Source: Lepus europaeus (taxonomy: Eukaryota; Chordata; Mammalia; Lagomorpha; Leporidae). Taken from it: a stretch of 64,000 nucleotides of DNA. The notes beneath the pieces were generated by a model that was given only the letters and a program-made list of their open reading frames with translations, did no database searches and had not been told where the DNA came from. Made by a program: the position numbers and the translations under genes. Shown one piece after another: positions 12,244 through 63,000 of the stretch; position 1 is the first letter of the stretch, and every line of letters begins with the position of its first letter. The DNA lies in assembly GCF_033115175.1 (NCBI RefSeq), contig NC_084833.1:50156716-50220715 (forward strand). Direction: 5' to 3'.

Positions 12244-12428
12244 CTTCTTCCTGGAGTCATTCGGCTGCTCAGGCCTGGAGCTCCCTGCGACGCCGGCCGA
12301 AGGCTTCAGAGCCCACATTAGTGGGCACAAAGTTGCTCTTCACTATTCCCCCTGACCTGCTCAGCAAGCCTGCCAGCCGATGGGTCACGCAGGTGGCAGT
12401 GTTGCAGCCTCTCTTCTGGGCAGTGACA
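12244..12428 (-). other. CALCB: CALCB exon 5 (CGRP exon)
   Basis: The acceptor is 'tgcaaatcag' and the donor 'gaagaag|gtgaga'. The first base completes a Ser codon with the last two bases of exon 3. It encodes the KR cleavage site, all of CGRP, the amidation/processing tail GRRRRELQA and the stop (12269-12271), then 25 nt of 3' UTR. Confidence 0.92.
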
Positions 12429-14670
12429 CTGATTTGCAGGATGGGGAAAGAGGAGACCCGTCAATGGATGGCTGGGAGAGGTGTCTTCCCCCATGGGATC
12501 CTCATAAAGAGAATTGCAGCTCTGCAACATACTACTTAACAGTAAGTGTTTCTCCTAAATGCAATTATGCAATTAAGCTGTTAGGGGAAATGGCTGGCAG
12601 CCTTGGCAAGGAGCTATACCCAAAAATCATCACACACGCGCACATACACAGAGGGCAGCTCCAAACCAGGATGTTATGCTGAAACTCCAGAGAAAGAGCG
12701 AGCAGCAAGGCCCAGTCCACTTAATGACACACAAGGAGTATATGGAGATTATCTTGCAGCCACCAGCACCCACAAAACCATCTTCATGGGCAGATGAAAT
12801 TCCCCTAAAGCCTTTCCTGGAAGGCACTGAGAGATCAGGGTTGGCAGCATCTTCTCTCAGAAGTGGTTACGTGCTTCTAAGCACATGGGTCCTGCTACTT
12901 GCATGGGGTCACAGAAATCACGCACCACCCCATAGATGCAGCTACCTCGAACTAAGGCTACTTCTAAGCACGGGCATGGACACCCTCAAGCCTTGGATGT
13001 GGCCCAGAGCAGGTCAGGTGCTTTCATTCGTCAAGTGGTGAAGCATGAGGCATGTGCTGATTTTAGCATATTCAGAAGCAGGAAACAGATGGGCCTGCTG
13101 TGAAATCCTCTGGCGTGTCAATAAGCTCCCTTCACTCTCTTATCTCTACCCCAATCTGTGAGTTCTGCTCTCTCCCCTTCCATCCCAAGGTTCCCAGTGT
13201 TCTTGGTCAAATGTAAAGCCACCTACACTAGCCTGAAAAGCAATCAGAATGGAATCCACAGGCAATCGTGTTTATAAATGGGAGCATGAAAGAAAATCAG
13301 GAAGGAGTGGGACAGGTTCAGATGGCGTCCTGAGACACTGAAAAGTGGAGGCAGTTGTCTTGCTGCAAGCTTTTGGCTATGTTGCTTTACTGGCTTTGCA
13401 TTTCAATCCTGAAATCAATGCCAGCGAATGTACAAAAGTTGTCTGGGTTCTGTAAGGATGTGCCCAGCACATAAGCACTCAGATTACTACACCACTTAGA
13501 TTTGGGGCTGTCTAAGTTTCAGGGAAAAGACAAACCAGGAAGAAATACTATGTATGCCATGGGCAGTCAACAGAAGGTTAGGCCAGGCAGGGGCACTGCA
13601 AGTGGGGGCACAGCCCTCCACCAAGAGAGCTCTGAGGTGCTGCAGACCAGGGTGGAGTAAAGGGTGAACTTGACCTGCATTCCACACTGCTCAGTTCCTC
13701 ACGCAGAAGGGTTCCCAGAGCAGATTCATGGGCAACGCATGCCTCTGCACAGGCAGGGCTGGGGCCAAGCCAGGGGCTCTTCTGTGCTCTGGGCTCAGGG
13801 TACACAGAGGAGTGGGACTGGGGGAAGGGGTGCTCCTCCTGGCCCTATGGCCCCTTGCACATCTCTAAAGTGAGCACACATCTTATCACAAGTTCTAACT
13901 CACCCAATGCTGGGAGGTCTCCCCAGCACTGCAAGACCAATTTCCAGACTAAGCAGTTACACATACCCTCATTTTATTTCCTAATGCCTTTCAGAAATGA
14001 ATCTTACCACAGTCCCTTCAGCTGCAACATGGAAACTGACAATCACTGGGACACAGGTCTTGATGAATAACAACAGCGGGGCAGGTGCGTTCTCTCCTCC
14101 ATCTCTGGGATATGTCCTCCTGACTATGTCAGAGGCTGGTGGGGAGTCTTACCTGGAGCCCTCCGTCTCTAGCTCCTGCACCTGCTCTTGCTGCTCCAGC
14201 TCCAGCTTGCTGGCCTTCATCTGCACATAGTCCTGCACCAGTGCAGCCAGCAGGAGGCGCGCTTCCTCTTCATTAAGTGTGGCCAGGTCTGGGCTGCTCT
14301 CCAAGGCGGATCTGTGTAGGGCAAGCAAACCCAGCGCAGGTTCTGAGCCTCTGCGAGCCTCCTAGCCCCCGGGATAAGCAGCGAGGCTTCCCGATGCCTG
14401 CTTCTTCCCCTGAGGATGTGGCCGCTCTTCTCTCCGCCTCCCCCACCCCCCAGTGGACAGGGCATGAGGCCAGTTTCCACCTAAGGGCGCTGATTCACCA
14501 GCCACGCGTGACTTCAGAGGCATGGAACAGTCTGATCCCAGGGTCAGAGGGAGAGGAGTGCGCGGCCGCTTTGGGCTGGCTCACCTGAAGGGCGCCGCCT
14601 GGAGGCTGCCTGCCTGGCACAGGACCAAGATGCCTAGAGCCAGCAAGGGGGAGAATTTCCGGAAGCCCAT
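12269..14670 (-). CDS. CALCB: CALCB: beta-calcitonin gene-related peptide precursor, exons 2, 3 and 5
   Basis: This is a secreted neuropeptide precursor. CGRP is a vasodilator of sensory neurons acting through CALCRL/RAMP1. Splicing joins 14585-14670, 14153-14311 and 12269-12428, giving 134 codons plus stop; all junctions are GT-AG and keep frame. Residues 1 to about 25 are a signal peptide starting [18 protein letters not shown]. An acidic/Gln-rich propeptide follows, then KR, then the 37-residue peptide with the Cys2-Cys7 ring (GCNTATC), VTHRLAGLL helix and C-terminal Phe. Gly-Arg-Arg-Arg-Arg supplies the amide. Human CALCB is 127 residues; the extra seven lie at the end of exon 3. The peptide has Gly1, Ile22 and Glu35. 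[15 protein letters not shown] and the dead calcitonin exon favour CALCB over CALCA. Mammalian CALCA genes are the main alternative. Confidence 0.93.
12429..13384 (-). other. CALCB: CALCB intron sequence between calcitonin remnant and CGRP exon
   Basis: Single-copy intronic sequence in which no further exon or repeat was recognised. Short open frames here are not supported by any motif. Confidence 0.6.
13385..13520 (-). pseudogene. Decayed calcitonin exon (CALCA exon 4 equivalent)
   Basis: Read on the minus strand, an AG acceptor is followed by 'acagccccaaatctaag' and then text corresponding to the calcitonin exon. The frame gives [18 protein letters not shown], against the KRCGNLSTCMLGT expected of calcitonin. 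The KR processing site has become KW, calcitonin Gly2 is Ser and Cys7 is Tyr, so the ring cannot form. Similarity continues weakly to about 13385. Human CALCB is also known to have lost its calcitonin exon. The match was made by eye. Confidence 0.85.
14153..14311 (-). other. CALCB: CALCB exon 3 (propeptide exon)
   Basis: The acceptor is 'ccctacacag' and the donor 'ggctccag|gtaaga'. It contributes 52 full codons including the conserved [19 protein letters not shown] block, plus split Arg and Ser codons at its ends. Its last third is a Glu/Gln/Leu-rich run longer than in human CALCB. Confidence 0.93.
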
Positions 14671-17600: not shown

Positions 17601-19060
17601 CTCTGTGCCTACATTCTTGAGGACGCAAGGAGGGCCACCAAAGCGGCCTTCACTTGGAAGCTCCCCTGCCTAAGCTCGGCATACAAGCTCTCTGTCTTGT
17701 TCCCGGCCAGGGAGAGGGGCTCCCCAGCGGAAAGGCGAAGTTGGAAGATGCCGTCAGCATGAGGCATCTCCCCCTCCCACTGCAGTATCCGCTGCAGCAC
17801 CACTCTCCGCGAGGCTCTGGGGCAGCTTGGAGGGTGGCGGGCGCAGTAGGAGAGTAGATGCGTAAGGTCCCAGACCTTGGAACCCTGAAGGCATCGGTGC
17901 CTCTCAGGGCATAGGAAGCAGGTGGAGAGACAAAAGCAGTCCCGATTGGTCTTTGGACACCAGGGAAGCCCTAAAACAAACTTGGCAAAACTCCCACTTT
18001 GTGGGGCTAGGGGCAGGAAAGCTAGGGCTGTCTCCAGAGATCCAGTTTGTGTCGCTAGAACTCTTAAGGGTAGTGCCGACCGCCATATTGGCACCGCAAA
18101 AGGCACAGTGCCAGGCTGCGCCCTCTGCTCCATCCCTGGGCTCCGGGTGTCCAGCCACGCCTCGCAAAGCTCCTGCCTGGGGCAGGGTAGAAGGCAGCTT
18201 CTATGAAGACCGCCAGGATTCAGATCCCAGCGCTCTGAAAAGAGTTCAGCAGACTCCAAGAGAAATTCAACAATCTCAAAACAAACATACTGGATTCGGC
18301 GAATTGAATTCTTTGGTGCCCCCACGAGACTGGCTATTTCAACTATGAGCACCAAGAATTATTTGACCTAGTCTTCTTCAGCTATTAACTTCTTTGCACA
18401 ATGTATGGCACACAGTAGGAGCTCAGCAACTGCTTGGTGAAGACAGAAGGGCAGGGTGGTGAATGAATGGACAGTCTGAAGCACCATCAGACAGTACATT
18501 CAGAGCCAAGATGAAATGGACAGTAGACCCAATTAAGATCCATTAGATGGGAGAGCAGATGTTGATTCAAAGATACTCCTCTTTATTTACTAAAAGGAAT
18601 CAATGGCTTGGTGAAAACTTTCTGGAATCTAATGTGAGAGGAAATGCAGAGTTTTCTCTTTGGGAGTCCACTGGATTGCAAAGCAAAACGAGGCAGTTTT
18701 TCTCAGCCCATCCTTGTATTGTATTAGTGGATGGGAGGAAAAGTCCATAAAACGATTGGCTTTCTAAATTGAGAAAATTACATCTTGGTTTCCCTGGAAC
18801 TGTTTTGAGCTTCATGGCATCTCAGTAGCCTAAGGCGAATGGTTTCCTAAGAAAATGTTTGACTTTTAAATCATCTCTCAAATATTTTGATGCCCAATTC
18901 AAATATTTTATAACATTACTTTAAAATTTTAATGTGATAGTCTTAAAATTTTATAAAGAAACAGGTTCCATGAACTACAGCTTTTGAAGTTGATTTTTTT
19001 TTTTTTGTATTTTGATGTACTCCATTTCTTAAGAAATTGTCCAGAAGAATTTTCCTTAAG
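17601..19060. other. Single-copy sequence upstream of CALCB, no gene seen
   Basis: GC content falls across this region. A 248-codon frame on the minus strand (17609-18355) is the longest in unique DNA here, but it has no recognised domain and no splice or start context that would support it. Confidence 0.5.
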
Positions 19061-53085: not shown

Positions 53086-53495
53086 TGTCGGACCCTCGCC
53101 AGCAAGGGTCCAACGCGATCACGACACGGTCACTGTTTCTCGGTTCTCAAGGAACTTTTACTTGTGGGGGCAGAAGGAAAGAGTGAGGGGGAGAGAAGAA
53201 AAGAGGAGGAGGAGCTCCAAGCCCAATTCCCAATGTCCCTTTATACCCCAAGTCCCGTGGAGCATCCGCTCCACAGCCAATAGCGGCTCTCTTCATGCGC
53301 AGTTCACGCTGGTGTCGCCCAATCAGATGAAAGGACGTGTATAGTCTCAGGTCGAAAGTTCATCTGTTTCACCGGGTTCCTCCTAGTTGTTTATGCGGAG
53401 TCCATTCTGTTTCATCTGTTTCACCTGGCTGTTTTCGTGGGCCTTGTGGTCGACCGATTGCTGCAAGCTATGCAGATGGCCTGCGGTTCCCCACA
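53086..53495 (-). mobile_element. 3' LTR of class II endogenous retrovirus
   Basis: A 410-bp LTR bounded by TG...CA. On the minus strand it has inverted CCAAT boxes, a TATA box (TATAAAGGG at about 53237-53245) and an AGTAAA-type poly(A) signal near 53157. It is almost identical to the LTR at 58990-59421, with about eight substitutions counted by eye and a 22-bp difference close to the U3 start. It follows a polypurine tract. Confidence 0.95.
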
Positions 53496-53496
53496 G

Positions 53497-53509
53497 CTCC
53501 CCCTTTTTT
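53497..53509 (-). promoter_or_regulatory. Proviral polypurine tract
   Basis: The minus strand reads AAAAAAGGGGGAG immediately next to the 3' LTR. This is the plus-strand primer of a retrovirus. Confidence 0.9.
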
Positions 53510-53651
53510 GTTATTTATGGCGCGGAGTCATGCCTGTCTTAGGTTCCCAGCGATGCGCCACCTGCTTACCCGTCATCAAAACATTGGGAAGCATGTCCCA
53601 AGTTCTGTCTTAGGTTGCTAGGGGCACTCGCTAGTGATTACCCGTCTTTGG

Positions 53652-53834
53652 CTACTGCTCCATCATGTCAAGCCATATCTGTTGCTGAGGGTCAGAGCGA
53701 TACATAGCAAGCATAGCCTGTCGGACCACTAGGTTAGTGCGTTGCTGACTCCTGACTACTGCCAGGATGACTCTGCTAATTAGGAGGAAGGCAATCAATA
53801 AGACTATCAATAGGCAAAGAAACAGTCTCTTCAT
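53652..53834 (-). CDS. Short membrane-protein ORF in place of env
   Basis: A 60-codon frame starts 8 bases after the pol stop. Residues about 4-28 are strongly hydrophobic (LFLCLLIVLLIAFLLI opening), followed by a polar tail ending in acidic and Gln residues. It has no surface-subunit or fusion-peptide features. It may be the membrane anchor and tail left after env deletion, or an independent small ORF. A GTG one codon upstream is in frame. Expression is unknown. Confidence 0.4.
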   Translation of the reverse strand: MKRLFLCLLIVLLIAFLLISRVILAVVRSQQRTNLVVRQAMLAMYRSDPQQQIWLDMMEQ

Positions 53835-53844
53835 CACTTATAAG

Positions 53845-56400
53845 CTAGTCACTTTCTATTATCGATGAGTCTGTTGTAGTTTCCACTGGGAAGGGTTCGT
53901 CAGGGATTTTTGCGAGGAGTCGAATCCTCCTTTCCGGCGTCCAAATCGGTTGGGAAGCCCCCTGCAGAAAAAAGCAGACAGCGCCTCGTACCCTTCTTAG
54001 TAGGGGATACGGGCCTTTCCATTGGTTATCTTGTAAGTCCTTCCACATAACCCACTGCACTGGCTCCTTGTCAGCCAAATAGGAATGTAACTCAGGAGTT
54101 TTGCCACACTTTTTCTTATTCAAAAAATTTATAGTATATAGAGCTATAGCTAATGCATCGCGATTAGCTACCACATATTCTCCTATTCCCCCTTTTTGTG
54201 TATTAAGGTTTTTAAGTACAGGTGAGTTCGTTCAATTATTGCCTGCCCTTGGGGATTATAGGGCACACCTGTAGCATGCTTTATGCCGAATTCTTTTAAG
54301 AATGTAGCAAAACGGGCCGAAGTGTACGCCAGCCCATTATCTGTTTTAATAATCTGGGGCACCCCCCAAGCAGCAAAGGACTGTAGACAGTGTTGAATTA
54401 CTGTTGAGTTCCTTCTTTGTTTAGAGCCGTGGCTGACACAATTCCAGAGAACATGTCCACTGACACGTGCAAACAGCTCTGGCGTCCAAAAGACAGGATG
54501 TGAGTAACATCCATTTGCCAGATATGGCATGGCCAGAGGCCACAGGGGTTGGCTCCCGCCGGAAGTTTGGGGACGGTGAAAACAACACATTTCTCACAAG
54601 ATTTAATAATATCCTCAGCTTGGCTGCGAGGAATATTGTATTTTTGACTTAAGGTAGTACTGTTTACATGCCACTTAGAGTGAAACTGCTTTACTTCTTC
54701 AAAAGTAGAGCAGGCAAGCAGAAAGCGAGAATAGTAATCAGCTAACATATTGCCCTAAGAGGTCCGGGTAAGTTGGAGTGAGCCCTAATATGATCTATAA
54801 ATATAGGTTGTGACCTTCATAATAACTCAGCAACTTGCTGCAAATAGGGATATATGGAAGAAGCCTTGGAAATGTGGCATACTTTATCTACCATCCTAAC
54901 AGCATTAACCACATACACACTATCCGATAAGATATTCAGGGGACCTGTTTCTTTTTCCAGTATGGTTGCAATAATGGCCAATTCAGCATGTTGGGGAGAA
55001 GGGGACGCAGTTTTGCACCATCAGTAAACACAGTCGGAGCTCCCTCTATAGGACTTTTGCGCACCCTTTTGATCCGTACTACAGGAACCTGTGCGCAGAA
55101 TGTAACAAAGGGATAAGTTGGATAGTGATTATCCACTTCTATATATAACGCCCAAGTCCAAATTTCCTTCATCCATGCTTCTGTAGCCTTTCTACCAAAG
55201 GGAACGATGCATCGCTCCGGGTATTTTCCAGAAATTTCCATAGTTCTGTGGGCCGCAGCAAGGATTAAATCGGCTGTGGCTGCTCCTTGAGTGTACAACA
55301 CCCGAGGTAAGTGGGAATGCGGATACACAAACAACAGGGGACCTCCTTGCCATATCACTGCAAAGGGATTTAAATGCTCTAGAAAAACCAAAACTTCTGC
55401 AGGTTGTGACACATCACACCTTTGCATCTACATGATTTTAAGGCGCTCTTCAACTTTTTGTAAGATTGCAGCTGCCTCTGGGGTCAGCATACGAGGTGAG
55501 GCAAGCTGTGAATCGCCTTCAAAATGTTAAACAATGGGCGCATTTCATCAGTGGTTAGTTTACAATAAGGCCGTATCCAGTTTAAGTTACCGCATAATTT
55601 TTGGAAGTCATTTAACATTCTAAGTCCTGCGGTGGATATGACAAAATCTAAAGGGGCCACCGTAGTTGGTGTTAACCTTAGCCCTAGGTACTGGACCACG
55701 GTGCCCTTTTGAATCTTTTCTGGTGCAATTTGTAACCTTGCAGTCTGCAAGCATAAGGTTAGCATGGTAAACGCTCTTTCTAGGGTGTCCTCCCTCGGGG
55801 CTGCCAACAACAGGTCATCCATATAATGATAGACTTTAACATCTAAACAATGCTGCCGCACTGGTTCTATGGCTTGTGACACATACATCTGACAAAGTCG
55901 GGCTATTAGTCATGCCCTGGGGAAGAACCTTCCATTCAAAGCGCTTATCTGGGCCTGAACTGTAAAGGCAAACCTCTGCATGTCAAGGGGATTCAGCAGG
56001 ATAGAAAGAAGCAATCCTTTAAGTAAGTCAATCACTATGATGGGCCAGGCCTTTGGAATCATTGCGGGAACTGATAGTCCTGGCTTAACACCCCCATGGG
56101 CTGCATCTGTTTATTGATGGCCCTTAAATTGTGTAACAACCGAAACTTGCCCGATTTCTTTTTTATAACAAAAATTGGGGTGTTCCAAGGTGAGGTGGAT
56201 GGTTGAATATCCCCCGCCTCTAATTGTTGCTGAACGAGCTCATGAACTGCAGCCAACTCTTGAGGAAGGGCCACTGGGGTATCCATATCGGGTTGTCATC
56301 TAGCCAATTTAATGGCAATGGGGATGGCTGCAGCGCAGTGGCCCCCAAGAAAAACCCAGGCCTTGTCGGCCTTCGCTCCCTCGGGGTTCAAGAGTATCTT
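53845..56400 (-). pseudogene. Proviral pol (RT, RNase H, integrase), broken
   Basis: Pieces in order: RT fingers (56059-56286), RT palm with YMDD at about 55814-55825 (55484-55888), RT connection to the start of RNase H with TDGA (54936-55427), integrase HHCC zinc domain and first catalytic Asp (54398-54748), integrase core with second Asp and Glu 36 residues apart (54183-54590), and integrase C-terminal domain (53845-54174). The catalytic D,D-35-E residues survive at about 54511, 54341 and 54233. Frames change several times and there are stops in the RT palm and RNase H, so no enzyme can be made. Confidence 0.92.
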
Positions 56401-57164
56401 ATTCCTTGTTCCTGTTTTCCCAGTCCTCCTCCTGCGTATCCCATCTTTCTCATCATTTCCCACCCCAGGGATTCATTAGTTAACTGCAAATGAAGTTGCT
56501 CTAAGACATCCCTCCCCCATAAAGTTACAGGGATGGCACACACATAAGGTTGTACTTTGCCTGTGGTGCCTTCTTGATCTTTCCAGTCTAGCACTTGCGC
56601 ACTTCGGAATGGGGCAACACCGGTGCCTAATCCTACCAAGGTGTTATCTCCTTCCTGGAGGGGCCATGAAGGAGGCCAGTCTTGTTCGGAGATAATACTA
56701 ACATCTGTGCCCGTATTTAACAGCCCCTTGATTGCCTTTCCTTTGATAATAAGAGTCCATAGTGGGCGCTCGCCAAGAGTCATAGTGAGGGCTGCAAAAT
56801 GCTTTCCTTGATTACCTCTAGTATCCTTTACAGGGCTTATTATTAGCAGCTGAGCGACGGGCTGCAATGGCAACAGTTGCACTATCCCCTTAGTAGATTG
56901 GAACATTACTTTGAGCTGTGAACAAGGCAACTGAATAAGCCCCGTTATAACCACTAATCCCTTTAATGAATTTGTAGCCCTTCCTATAATAACGCCTAAA
57001 CCGTTGATATCATCCATGGGCTCTCGAGGTTCCACATCTATTGCGTGGATTCCCATTTGAGGTGTTAATACTAAATAGTTGGTGGCTCGCAGCTCTGTGC
57101 AGTAAACGCTTGCCAGTCCTTTTGAGACGGTCCTACTCCTCCCATGGTTTGTCCTCTCACTCAT
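56388..57164 (-). pseudogene. Proviral dUTPase-protease (pro) ORF with lost active site
   Basis: An open 258-codon frame holds a diverged dUTPase-like domain (about residues 28-110), a retroviral aspartic protease (about 130-230) and a G-patch (233-255, GWEMMRKMGYAGGGLGK), the betaretroviral arrangement. The protease motif reads NTGTD at residues 150-154 where DTG(A)D is expected, so the catalytic Asp is Asn (codon at 56715-56717). GRDVL near residue 218 is the conserved protease helix. The frame is intact but the enzyme should be dead. Confidence 0.9.
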
Positions 57165-57179
57165 TGAGTTTTTGGGCCC

Positions 57180-58785
57180 CTACCACTCGTTTTTTTGGAA
57201 TGTACTATTCTGGCCACTTAATCTGGTGGGTGATAGGAGCGGATTGCCTGCCTTATCTTGCTTGGAATAGCACTCATTTGCCCAATGGTTGCCTTTACCG
57301 TATCGAGGGCACAGTCCTGGTTGGTGTCCCAATTGTCTCTGTTCTGTACATTCCCTTTTCATGTGACCTTCTTTTCCACACTTAAAACATCTTTGTCCTA
57401 GCCCGTTATTGCGTATAATTTTGGCCATGGCAATTGCTGCGTGCTCTCCCGAGGCTACTTCATCCTATGACATCCCTACAGATTTTTAGAAAGGTGGGAA
57501 TGTCCTTATGCTGCCAGGGTCTTAGAGCCTCAAGGCAGGTTTTGTTTGCTTGTTCATAGGCTAACCTTTGGACTAAAGGCATAGCCTCATCCATGGTCTC
57601 AAAGATATTGCCAGCAGCCTCCATTAATCTGTTCACAAAATCAGCATAGGGCTCTGTTGGGCCTTGTATAATCTTGGATAAACTGTGTCTGATCTCCCCT
57701 TTCCTTGGAATGACCTTCCACGCCCTCCAAGCTAGTTCTCTCACTTGCATCAAAACCTCATTAGGGCATCTAGCCTGAGCATGTTCGTCATTAAAAGCCC
57801 CTCCCCCATTTAGCATATCCTCGTTCCAGGCTGGCTGACCATTCCTAGCGTTATCATGGGCCTGAGCCCTCGCAAGCTCTCTGTAAGCCACGGACCAGAG
57901 GAGGAAGTCTCCCCCACCAAGCACTGCCTTAGCTAGGTTCCTCCAGTCCTCTGGGACTAGCCCATTGGTGCCTATGTTATCTAGGACCGCTTTAGTAAAG
58001 TTAGCATGTGGTCCATATAATTGTACTGATTGTTGTAATTCCTTCAACAATTTATGGTCCAGGGGGGTCCATCCCCGGTTGCCCTGCGTGTCCACTATCA
58101 CAGGGAAAGCCTGATTTATGTGGTGATATTCTTCCCACTTAGGGGGAGTGCCTCGTCCTCCTGCCAGTTTTTCTCGAGGAGGTTCCGGGGAGAAGCCCCT
58201 GCCTTTTATCTCTCTCGTGGAGGAGGAGTCCTCCGGAGGGGGGAAGAGTCTTGGTTAAGGTGATCGGTTGCCATGATGGCCGATCCTGCAAAGTTAGGTT
58301 AGCCAGTTTGCAGCAACACGGAGGAACTCCTCCTACGGGCAAATATGCCGAACAGGGGGGGGTGCAGAAGGAAGGGGTCTCTCATCCTCCCTATCTCTCT
58401 GTCCCAACCCATATTGGTCCTCTCTGTCTTCATCTTCTTCGTCTCCATCTAGGCTCCCAGATGGAAATTCTCTCTGTGTTTCCTCTAGTAAATCAGCCCC
58501 TTCATCTAAGAGGGTTGCTATTTCCTCCGAGTCATTACGGAGAGCTGGGTCGATCAGTTGCCATAACCTAAGGACTTCAGGCAATTTCTCTGCTGCCCTC
58601 AATTGTCTTCCGACCCTATGCCATTGTTCCTGATCTAACTCGCCACTCTCCACGAACCAGGGTGAGGTCTGAGCAACGGCTCTAGTGAATGCACATATAG
58701 TGGCTGCTTTCACGGGCGTCCCCGCTACTTTTAAAAGACAGCTTAATTACAGGCGCAACCTGGTTGTCGAGGGAGTGTTTCCCAT
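57180..58785 (-). pseudogene. Proviral gag, broken
   Basis: The ATG at 58783-58785 begins a Met-Gly-Asn opening suited to myristoylation, but codon 13 is a TAA (58747-58749). The matrix region continues open to 58333 (PWF motif and an acidic DGDEEDEDRED segment). The proline-rich middle changes frame between about 58,330 and 58,250. Capsid with the major homology region (QGPTEPYADFVNRL) is open at 57460-58101. A further frame change near 57,462 separates it from nucleocapsid (57180-57428). The first zinc knuckle is intact; the second has Tyr in place of its second Cys. Confidence 0.92.
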
Positions 58786-58969
58786 TGTTTTTTCCCGTAC
58801 CAACCCTAGGCTTTTTATATCACCCGCCTAGATTCCTGTGTTTTACACACGTTCTACTTTCCCTATTCCCTTTTTTCCGGTACCAACCCTAGGCTTTTTA
58901 TATCACCGCCTAGATTTCCGTGTCTTATGTTCAAACTTTTCTTACCTGCTTTCAGCGACCGGTCCGGCT
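58786..58969 (-). repeat. Proviral leader with imperfect direct repeat
   Basis: Two copies of a 48-bp unit at 58798-58845 and 58880-58927, both opening (plus strand) 'gtaccaaccctaggcttttt' and differing by small substitutions and a 1-bp indel. They lie between the primer site and gag, where packaging signals usually sit. Confidence 0.85.
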
Positions 58970-58987
58970 ATCCGAGTCACGGCACCA
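58970..58987 (-). promoter_or_regulatory. Proviral primer-binding site, tRNA-His type
   Basis: The plus strand here equals the 3' end of mammalian tRNA-His including CCA, over 18 bases as I recall that tRNA. It sits 2 bp from the 5' LTR edge, as expected for a retroviral primer site. Confidence 0.85.
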
Positions 58988-58989
58988 CT

Positions 58990-59421
58990 TGTTGGACCCT
59001 CACCACCAAGGGTCCAACGCAATCACGACATGGTCACTGTTTCTCGGTTCTCAAGGAACTTTTACTTGTGGGGGCAGAAGGAAAGAGTGAGGGGGAGAGA
59101 AGAAAAGAGGAGGAGGAGCTCCAAGCCCAATTCCCAATGTCCCTTTATACCCCAAGTCCCGTGGAGCATCCGCTCCACAGCCAATAGCGGCTCTCTTCAT
59201 GTGCAGTTCACGCTGGTGTCGCCCAATCAGATGAAAGGACGCGTATAGTCTCAGGTCGAAAGTTCATCTGTTTCACCGGGTTCCTCCTAGTTGTTTATGC
59301 GGAGTCCATTCTGTTTCATCTGTTTCACCTGGCTGTTTTCGTGGGCCTTGTGGTCGACCGATTGCTGCAAGCTATGCAGATGAGGAGGTTCTCACAGGTG
59401 GCCAGCCTGTGGTTCCCCACA
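58990..59421 (-). mobile_element. 5' LTR of class II endogenous retrovirus
   Basis: A 432-bp LTR, TG...CA, with the same TATA box (about 59141-59149) and CCAAT boxes as the 3' LTR. It carries 22 extra bases near the U3 start ('ggaggttctcacaggtggcc' region at about 59384-59405). The U5 end forms a short inverted repeat (GGACCCT/AGGGTCC). Confidence 0.95.
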
Positions 59422-62750: not shown

Positions 62751-63000
62751 GATGAATAATTTTAATCAGCTTGCTTGAAAATGAAGCACCCCACTTCTAC
62801 AAGAATTTCATCACAGGCTGAGAGGGATTTTAAAAAAAGGAGTCTTTCATTAACTGGGAGGTGAGCCTAGATCAAAAACATGCTTGTCTATTTCATTTTC
62901 ACTGCTAGTGTTGAATGAGAAGTCAGAACAGTATAGTAAATTCCTCAAAACACTACATTCATTCACCTCCAAAGATTACATTTAAAAAAAAAAAAGATTT

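Follow-up and report, generated by a model that had tools for sequence, protein, structure and literature searches.

What lies between the propeptide and CGRP exons of a calcitonin-family gene of the hare Lepus europaeus, and could calcitonin still be made from it? The question arises in a 64,000-nucleotide stretch of hare DNA (the window, to whose positions all coordinates refer; contig NC_084833.1), for which a preliminary description had claimed a recognisable calcitonin exon, damaged beyond use, on the minus strand. The following exons of the host gene encode the CGRP precursor:

14585..14670, minus strand: coding part of exon 2 (signal peptide) of a CALCB-type gene; Pfam PF00214, E 9.7e-8 (14587-14670); a GT donor comes next and the splice is in frame
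14153..14311, minus strand: exon 3, propeptide, with donor CCAG/gtaaga; Pfam PF00214, E 1.2e-10 (14155-14310)
12269..12428, minus strand: coding part of CGRP exon 5 with its stop; Pfam PF00214, E 2.3e-21 (12272-12427)

Translation of the window reveals that prepro-CGRP exons 2, 3 and 5 are open and in frame, giving a 134-residue precursor when spliced, with exon 3 joining exon 5 in frame. The start of the hormone in exon 5 (KR-GCNTATC...) is intact, and the CGRP of solved structures aligns with this exon in a structure-sequence search. The two best-matching rabbit CGRP2 entries, P0001 and P0002, share 93% identity with the hare precursor, against 82% for the lagomorph entries P0037 and P0040, which we take to be CALCA products, since P0040 has its N-terminal part in common with rabbit calcitonin P0123. 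By percent identity, the gene in the window is nearer to annotated CGRP2 than to the lagomorph CALCA product. The two rabbit CGRP2 entries themselves are not identical: the first CGRP residue is Gly in one and Ser in the other, and their propeptides differ too, which may reflect alleles or paralogues.

The features of the stretch in question, all upstream of exon 5 in the window's gene, are as follows:

13318..13516, minus strand: fossil calcitonin exon, complete coding relic with the position of the ancestral stop (HMM, tblastn and alignment)
13065..13317, minus strand: remains of a 3' UTR belonging to the terminal calcitonin exon (blastn match to an assumed human CALCA 3' UTR)
13387..13389, minus strand: premature TAA, standing where the amidation/cleavage signal Gly-Lys-Lys-Arg has its second Lys (alignment)
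13517..13518, minus strand: AA at the point where the exon's ancestral acceptor AG is expected (placed from proteins, not DNA)
13512..13513, minus strand: AG inside the exon, the acceptor named in the preliminary description; splicing here gives a frameshift, ...EGSRQPQI-stop
13508..13509, minus strand: the AG that follows, in frame with calcitonin; its use would yield ...EGSSPKSKWC...MQSQ-stop

The relic sits on the minus strand between propeptide exon 3 and CGRP exon 5 and is colinear, from 13516 to 13318 and with no indel, with intact CALCB-type exons. The preliminary description had placed the exon at 13385-13520; it is indeed there, but the coding relic runs 67 bases past that end. Two HMMs were built here from the database matches listed, one from 64 CALCA-type and one from 16 CALCB-type calcitonin exons, and of the 2119 ORFs of the window the stop-to-stop frame 13518-13390 came top with both (CALCB-type, 49.3 bits, E 3.7e-14; CALCA-type, 30.3 bits, E 2.9e-8). 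Second with both was ORF 13386-13321, the in-frame continuation past the stop, at 12.6 bits and E 0.01 with the CALCB-type HMM and E 0.78 with the CALCA-type HMM. In tblastn, the CALCB-type colugo protein P0174 matches 13518-13324 over 65 gapless residues (50.8% identity, E 3.7e-16), whereas the match of rabbit CALCA calcitonin is weak (31% identity, 33 bits). The CALCB-type 'GIDF' is present in the relic and its best matches are CALCB-type entries; by score, the relic fits calcitonin of the CALCB/CRSP type (49 bits) better than that of the CALCA type (30 bits). The claims of a recognisable, significantly aligning calcitonin exon between the propeptide and CGRP exons, and of its place within a CALCB-type (beta-CGRP) gene, are thus borne out. 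Taken alone, the fossil piece (43 residues) has no match in Pfam or among solved structures; with full-length P0202, a Pfam match extends to residue 96, about 14 residues into the fossil part.

The flanks of the relic were compared with an assumed DNA sequence of human CALCA exon 4, the coding part of which equals the tail of database protein P0121. By blastn, this exon aligns from 13512 to 13151 (E 2.9e-14) and its 3' UTR alone aligns from 13312 to 13151 (E 4.6e-9). A further UTR match at 13089-13065 has an E value of 0.015, no better than tandem-repeat matches at 47.5 kb; it is colinear in a pairwise alignment, in which the assumed UTR scores 60 compared with at most 17 in 200 shuffles. On these alignments, the 3'-UTR homology reaches 13151, and probably 13065, and therefore the terminal exon is present with its UTR, not the peptide part alone. 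The hare intron 5' of the relic reads NLLLTAHG in one frame, likewise found in P0200 and P0205.

Other calcitonin-like matches in the window (17665-17865, 55580-55825 and 62854-62982) are weak, with a best tblastn E value of 0.005, and were rejected; 55580-55825 looks like reverse transcriptase, and the other two are taken as chance. The minus-strand region 53086-59289 is an endogenous retrovirus-like insertion, with direct repeats at 53086-53385 and 58990-59289 (98%), a gag p24 at 57463-58101 and an aspartyl protease with a G-patch at 56391-57164; a piece near 55825 within it carries YMDD, which we take to be the reverse-transcriptase motif. What we assume to be a lagomorph SINE motif occurs in 8 copies in the window at up to 3 mismatches, against 0.00 expected. 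A scan of viral contigs for calcitonin DNA yielded 3 pattern matches and no relatives.

The signals of a functional calcitonin exon, i.e. the dibasic site, the Cys1-Cys7 ring and the amidation signal, are all missing from the hare relic. As had been claimed, the dibasic KR before Cys1 reads KW and Cys7 is Tyr; Cys1 is kept, and with Cys7 replaced there can be no ring. Pro-Gly-Lys-Lys-Arg reads Gln-Ser-Gln-stop-Ser, which excludes both amidation and C-terminal cleavage; this loss of the amidation signal, with the in-frame stop at 13389-13387, is absent from the preliminary description, whose conclusion that calcitonin cannot be made is upheld by the lack of dibasic site, Cys7 and amidation signal together. 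Its reading of Ser for Gly at position 2 as damage is mistaken, since 11 of the 15 intact CALCB-type rows among the matches listed carry Ser2, which is thus normal and no lesion. With respect to polyadenylation, neither AATAAA nor ATTAAA occurs on the minus strand from 13516 to 12440, the rarer variants there being AGTAAA (13391), TATAAA (13276) and AATGAA (13028).

At 24 of 65 positions the hare has a residue or stop absent from all 12 intact CALCB-type rows compared, the mean mutual identity of which is 76%; these are 12 of the 15 intact rows listed, P0184, P0192 and P0199 being omitted (the P0192 exon equals that of P0194, and P0184 and P0199 differ in length or end). Differences from the assumed human CALCA DNA number 31, 19 and 25 of 66 at the three codon positions, and dN/dS against human CALCA is approximately 0.57 over 64 codons, not 1, one side being constrained; such values fit a comparison in which one lineage was constrained and the other freer. 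The 198 aligned bases of the relic hold no indel, and the adjoining 3' UTR relic has several gaps relative to the assumed human CALCA sequence. In simulations, 0.20-0.30 substitutions per site were needed for 24 to 28 changed residues, and the chance of zero indels was 0.04 to 0.001, rough values that depend on a proxy ancestor built here and on assumed indel ratios. The missing indels are regarded as a mild anomaly for long neutral decay and as no evidence of function.

The place of the ancestral acceptor we infer from read-through proteins. The hare read-through TGA AAC stands opposite Cys-Ser of the ground-squirrel read-through ...MSFPCSLDSPRSKRC (P0200, likewise P0205), and because the Ser codon of these read-throughs should hold the AG, the hare AA is placed at the ancestral acceptor, which has probably been lost by a change from AG to AA. 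The junction implied by P0202, 13517/13516, likewise falls at this AA in the window. The preliminary description held that an AG acceptor remains and makes low-level splicing possible; that holds for AG 13509-13508, but the AG it named, 13513-13512, was rejected as an acceptor able to serve the frame of calcitonin, for it leads to a frameshift and stop. AG 13509-13508 lies 4 nt beyond it and is in frame, and hence some splicing of exon 4 may be possible, although the predicted product could not mature to calcitonin. The New World monkey calcitonin entries P0167, P0170 and P0176 read GSSPRSKRC, as if the equivalent of AG 13509-13508 were used.

Exons 2 and 3 of the window, joined to the fossil, are identical over 124 of 124 residues to P0202, a Lepus europaeus 'calcitonin-like isoform X2', so that the gene, described earlier as rabbit, is that of the hare (rabbit CGRP2 reaches 93%). 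The protein is the same as the window reading, but the record presents the exon as an isoform, not a relic. An annotation pipeline has joined exon 3 to the fossil exon in L. europaeus (P0202; window 14670-13390), and either the reference allele at the exon junction differs from AA or the model is non-canonical. We consider P0202 probably to be a reading of the relic. It is suggested that P0037 and P0202 lie on one chromosome. A region search with the 45-residue fossil tail returned P0202 alone (1 of 1 candidate); this says little, since the search missed P0174 and other known relatives.

Several other accounts of the stretch have to be weighed. Chance resemblance is scarcely credible: the isolated 43-residue piece is indeed without Pfam or solved-structure match, but the HMM search (E 3.7e-14) already refutes such a reading, and the place between exons 3 and 5, the colinear continuation past the stop and the flanking homology argue against it as well. 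It is also very unlikely that the exon is a recent arrival from CALCA, brought in by gene conversion or retro-insertion and decayed since. Rabbit CALCA calcitonin matches weakly (31%, 33 bits), 'GIDF' and the best matches are of CALCB type, and the intron sequence 5' of the exon (NLLLTAHG) and the 3' UTR are both present; thus, although the calcitonin exons of CALCA and CALCB are similar enough for conversion in principle, recent conversion was rejected on the stronger CALCB-type match and the presence of flanking intron and UTR.

A further possibility, which we likewise consider unlikely, is that the exon is still spliced in hares to give a short truncated 'calcitonin-like' precursor with a residual role. 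The exact match of the database isoform P0202 to the window reading, the in-frame AG at 13509-13508 and the absence of indels over 198 bases are what this proposal would have in its favor; the lack of a dibasic site before Cys1, of Cys7 and of an amidation signal, the AA at the implied junction and the absence of AATAAA/ATTAAA from 13516 to 12440 tell against it. There is only a slim chance that hares splice the exon, either at the ancestral site in an allele that has AG there or via AG 13509-13508, into a truncated, non-amidated precursor, the frame being kept indel-free; were this so, the window would hold a variant of the exon that changes its product, rather than one merely rotting.

Our preferred reading, to which we give a probability of about 0.91, is that the stretch represents exon 4, the calcitonin exon, of the hare CALCB gene in degenerate form, its function having been lost in the lineage to the hare; it is supported directly by the homology, the lesions, the subtype and the intact CGRP frame. 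Counting against it are the isoform record P0202, the in-frame AG 13509-13508, the missing indels and the dN/dS below 1. On the mechanism we propose, CALCB would have received the whole alternative-splicing module upon the CALCA/CALCB duplication, i.e. the common exons 2-3, a terminal calcitonin exon equipped with a separate poly(A) site and then the CGRP exons. Along the hare lineage, the calcitonin exon would have lost its prohormone cleavage site, ring cysteine and amidation signal, and probably the ancestral splice acceptor and poly(A) signal too. The transcript would then be expected to run from exon 3 to exon 5, giving beta-CGRP; we infer this default splicing, as we do the timing of the loss and the neutrality of the decay.

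How general the loss may be was considered from a calcitonin-precursor query, with 120 of 231 matches listed and 83 rows with a calcitonin exon used (P0121-P0202 and P0205). These split into 64 CALCA-type and 17 CALCB-type rows, with P0190 off motif and P0193 of neither subtype; for counting signals, the latter two joined the CALCA-like rows, bringing these to 66. The dibasic site, Cys1, Cys7 and Gly-basic-basic are all kept in 15 of the 17 CALCB-type rows and in 62 of the 66 others among the matches listed, but not in the hare, the two CALCB-type failures being the hare and the galago P0185. Six of the 15 intact CALCB-type rows are named 'calcitonin gene-related peptide 2' isoforms, these six being from armadillo, shrew, a leaf-nosed bat, tamandua, a flying fox and meerkat (names per source). 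That tree shrew, armadillo, tamandua and leaf-nosed bat each have a CALCA-type and a CALCB-type entry suggests tandem genes. The preliminary description took loss of the exon as the accepted mark of CALCB. This agrees with the view in the relevant passages of two reviews, which give CGRP as the only CALCB product (PMC6283891, PMC7501564), but is weakened by the retention of the signals in 15 of the 17 CALCB-type rows listed and by the statement, in a passage of the former, that dog CRSP, a CGRP-beta orthologue, makes calcitonin mRNA (PMC6283891). The intact CALCB calcitonin exons are gene predictions; given the 15 of 17 rows, the loss looks lineage-specific and is no universal CALCB mark.

The intact CALCB/CRSP-type exons (tree shrew P0171, colugo P0174, armadillo P0179, aardvark P0181, dog P0194 and others) are the same exon as that of the hare, with which they share the 'SGI-F' hallmark and, in 9 of the 12 rows compared, the 65-codon length; unlike the hare, they keep KR, Cys1, Cys7 and Gly-Lys-Lys-Arg. 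The Otolemur garnettii entry P0185 is decayed like the hare relic, with KC for KR, Tyr for both Cys1 and Cys7 and Gly-Lys-Lys-Arg gone, but it lacks 3 residues relative to the hare frame and runs to the usual end. Because both tree shrew and colugo have intact entries, the decay probably arose independently in hare and galago. Among the CALCA-type calcitonins, manatee P0162 (Trichechus manatus) has Tyr for Cys1, and that entry may therefore itself be damaged. Human CALCB is reported, by Alevizaki and colleagues in 1986, to hold a dead calcitonin-like pseudo-exon between exons 3 and 5; by that description it is, like the hare relic, a dead calcitonin exon in a CGRP-only gene. The hare relic is a further case of a known kind of exon loss. 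Literature queries, none of which joined hare and CALCB, listed no paper whose title concerned a CALCB pseudo-exon in hare or rabbit.

The overall results make hare CALCB a clear case in which a tandem duplicate has lost one of two alternative products, and the 'calcitonin-like isoform' listed for the hare in the database is probably a relic. With the CALCB calcitonin exon predicted to retain its signals in various placental mammals and decayed in others, the statement that CALCB makes only CGRP looks lineage-specific, and repeated loss of the exon is open to comparative study.
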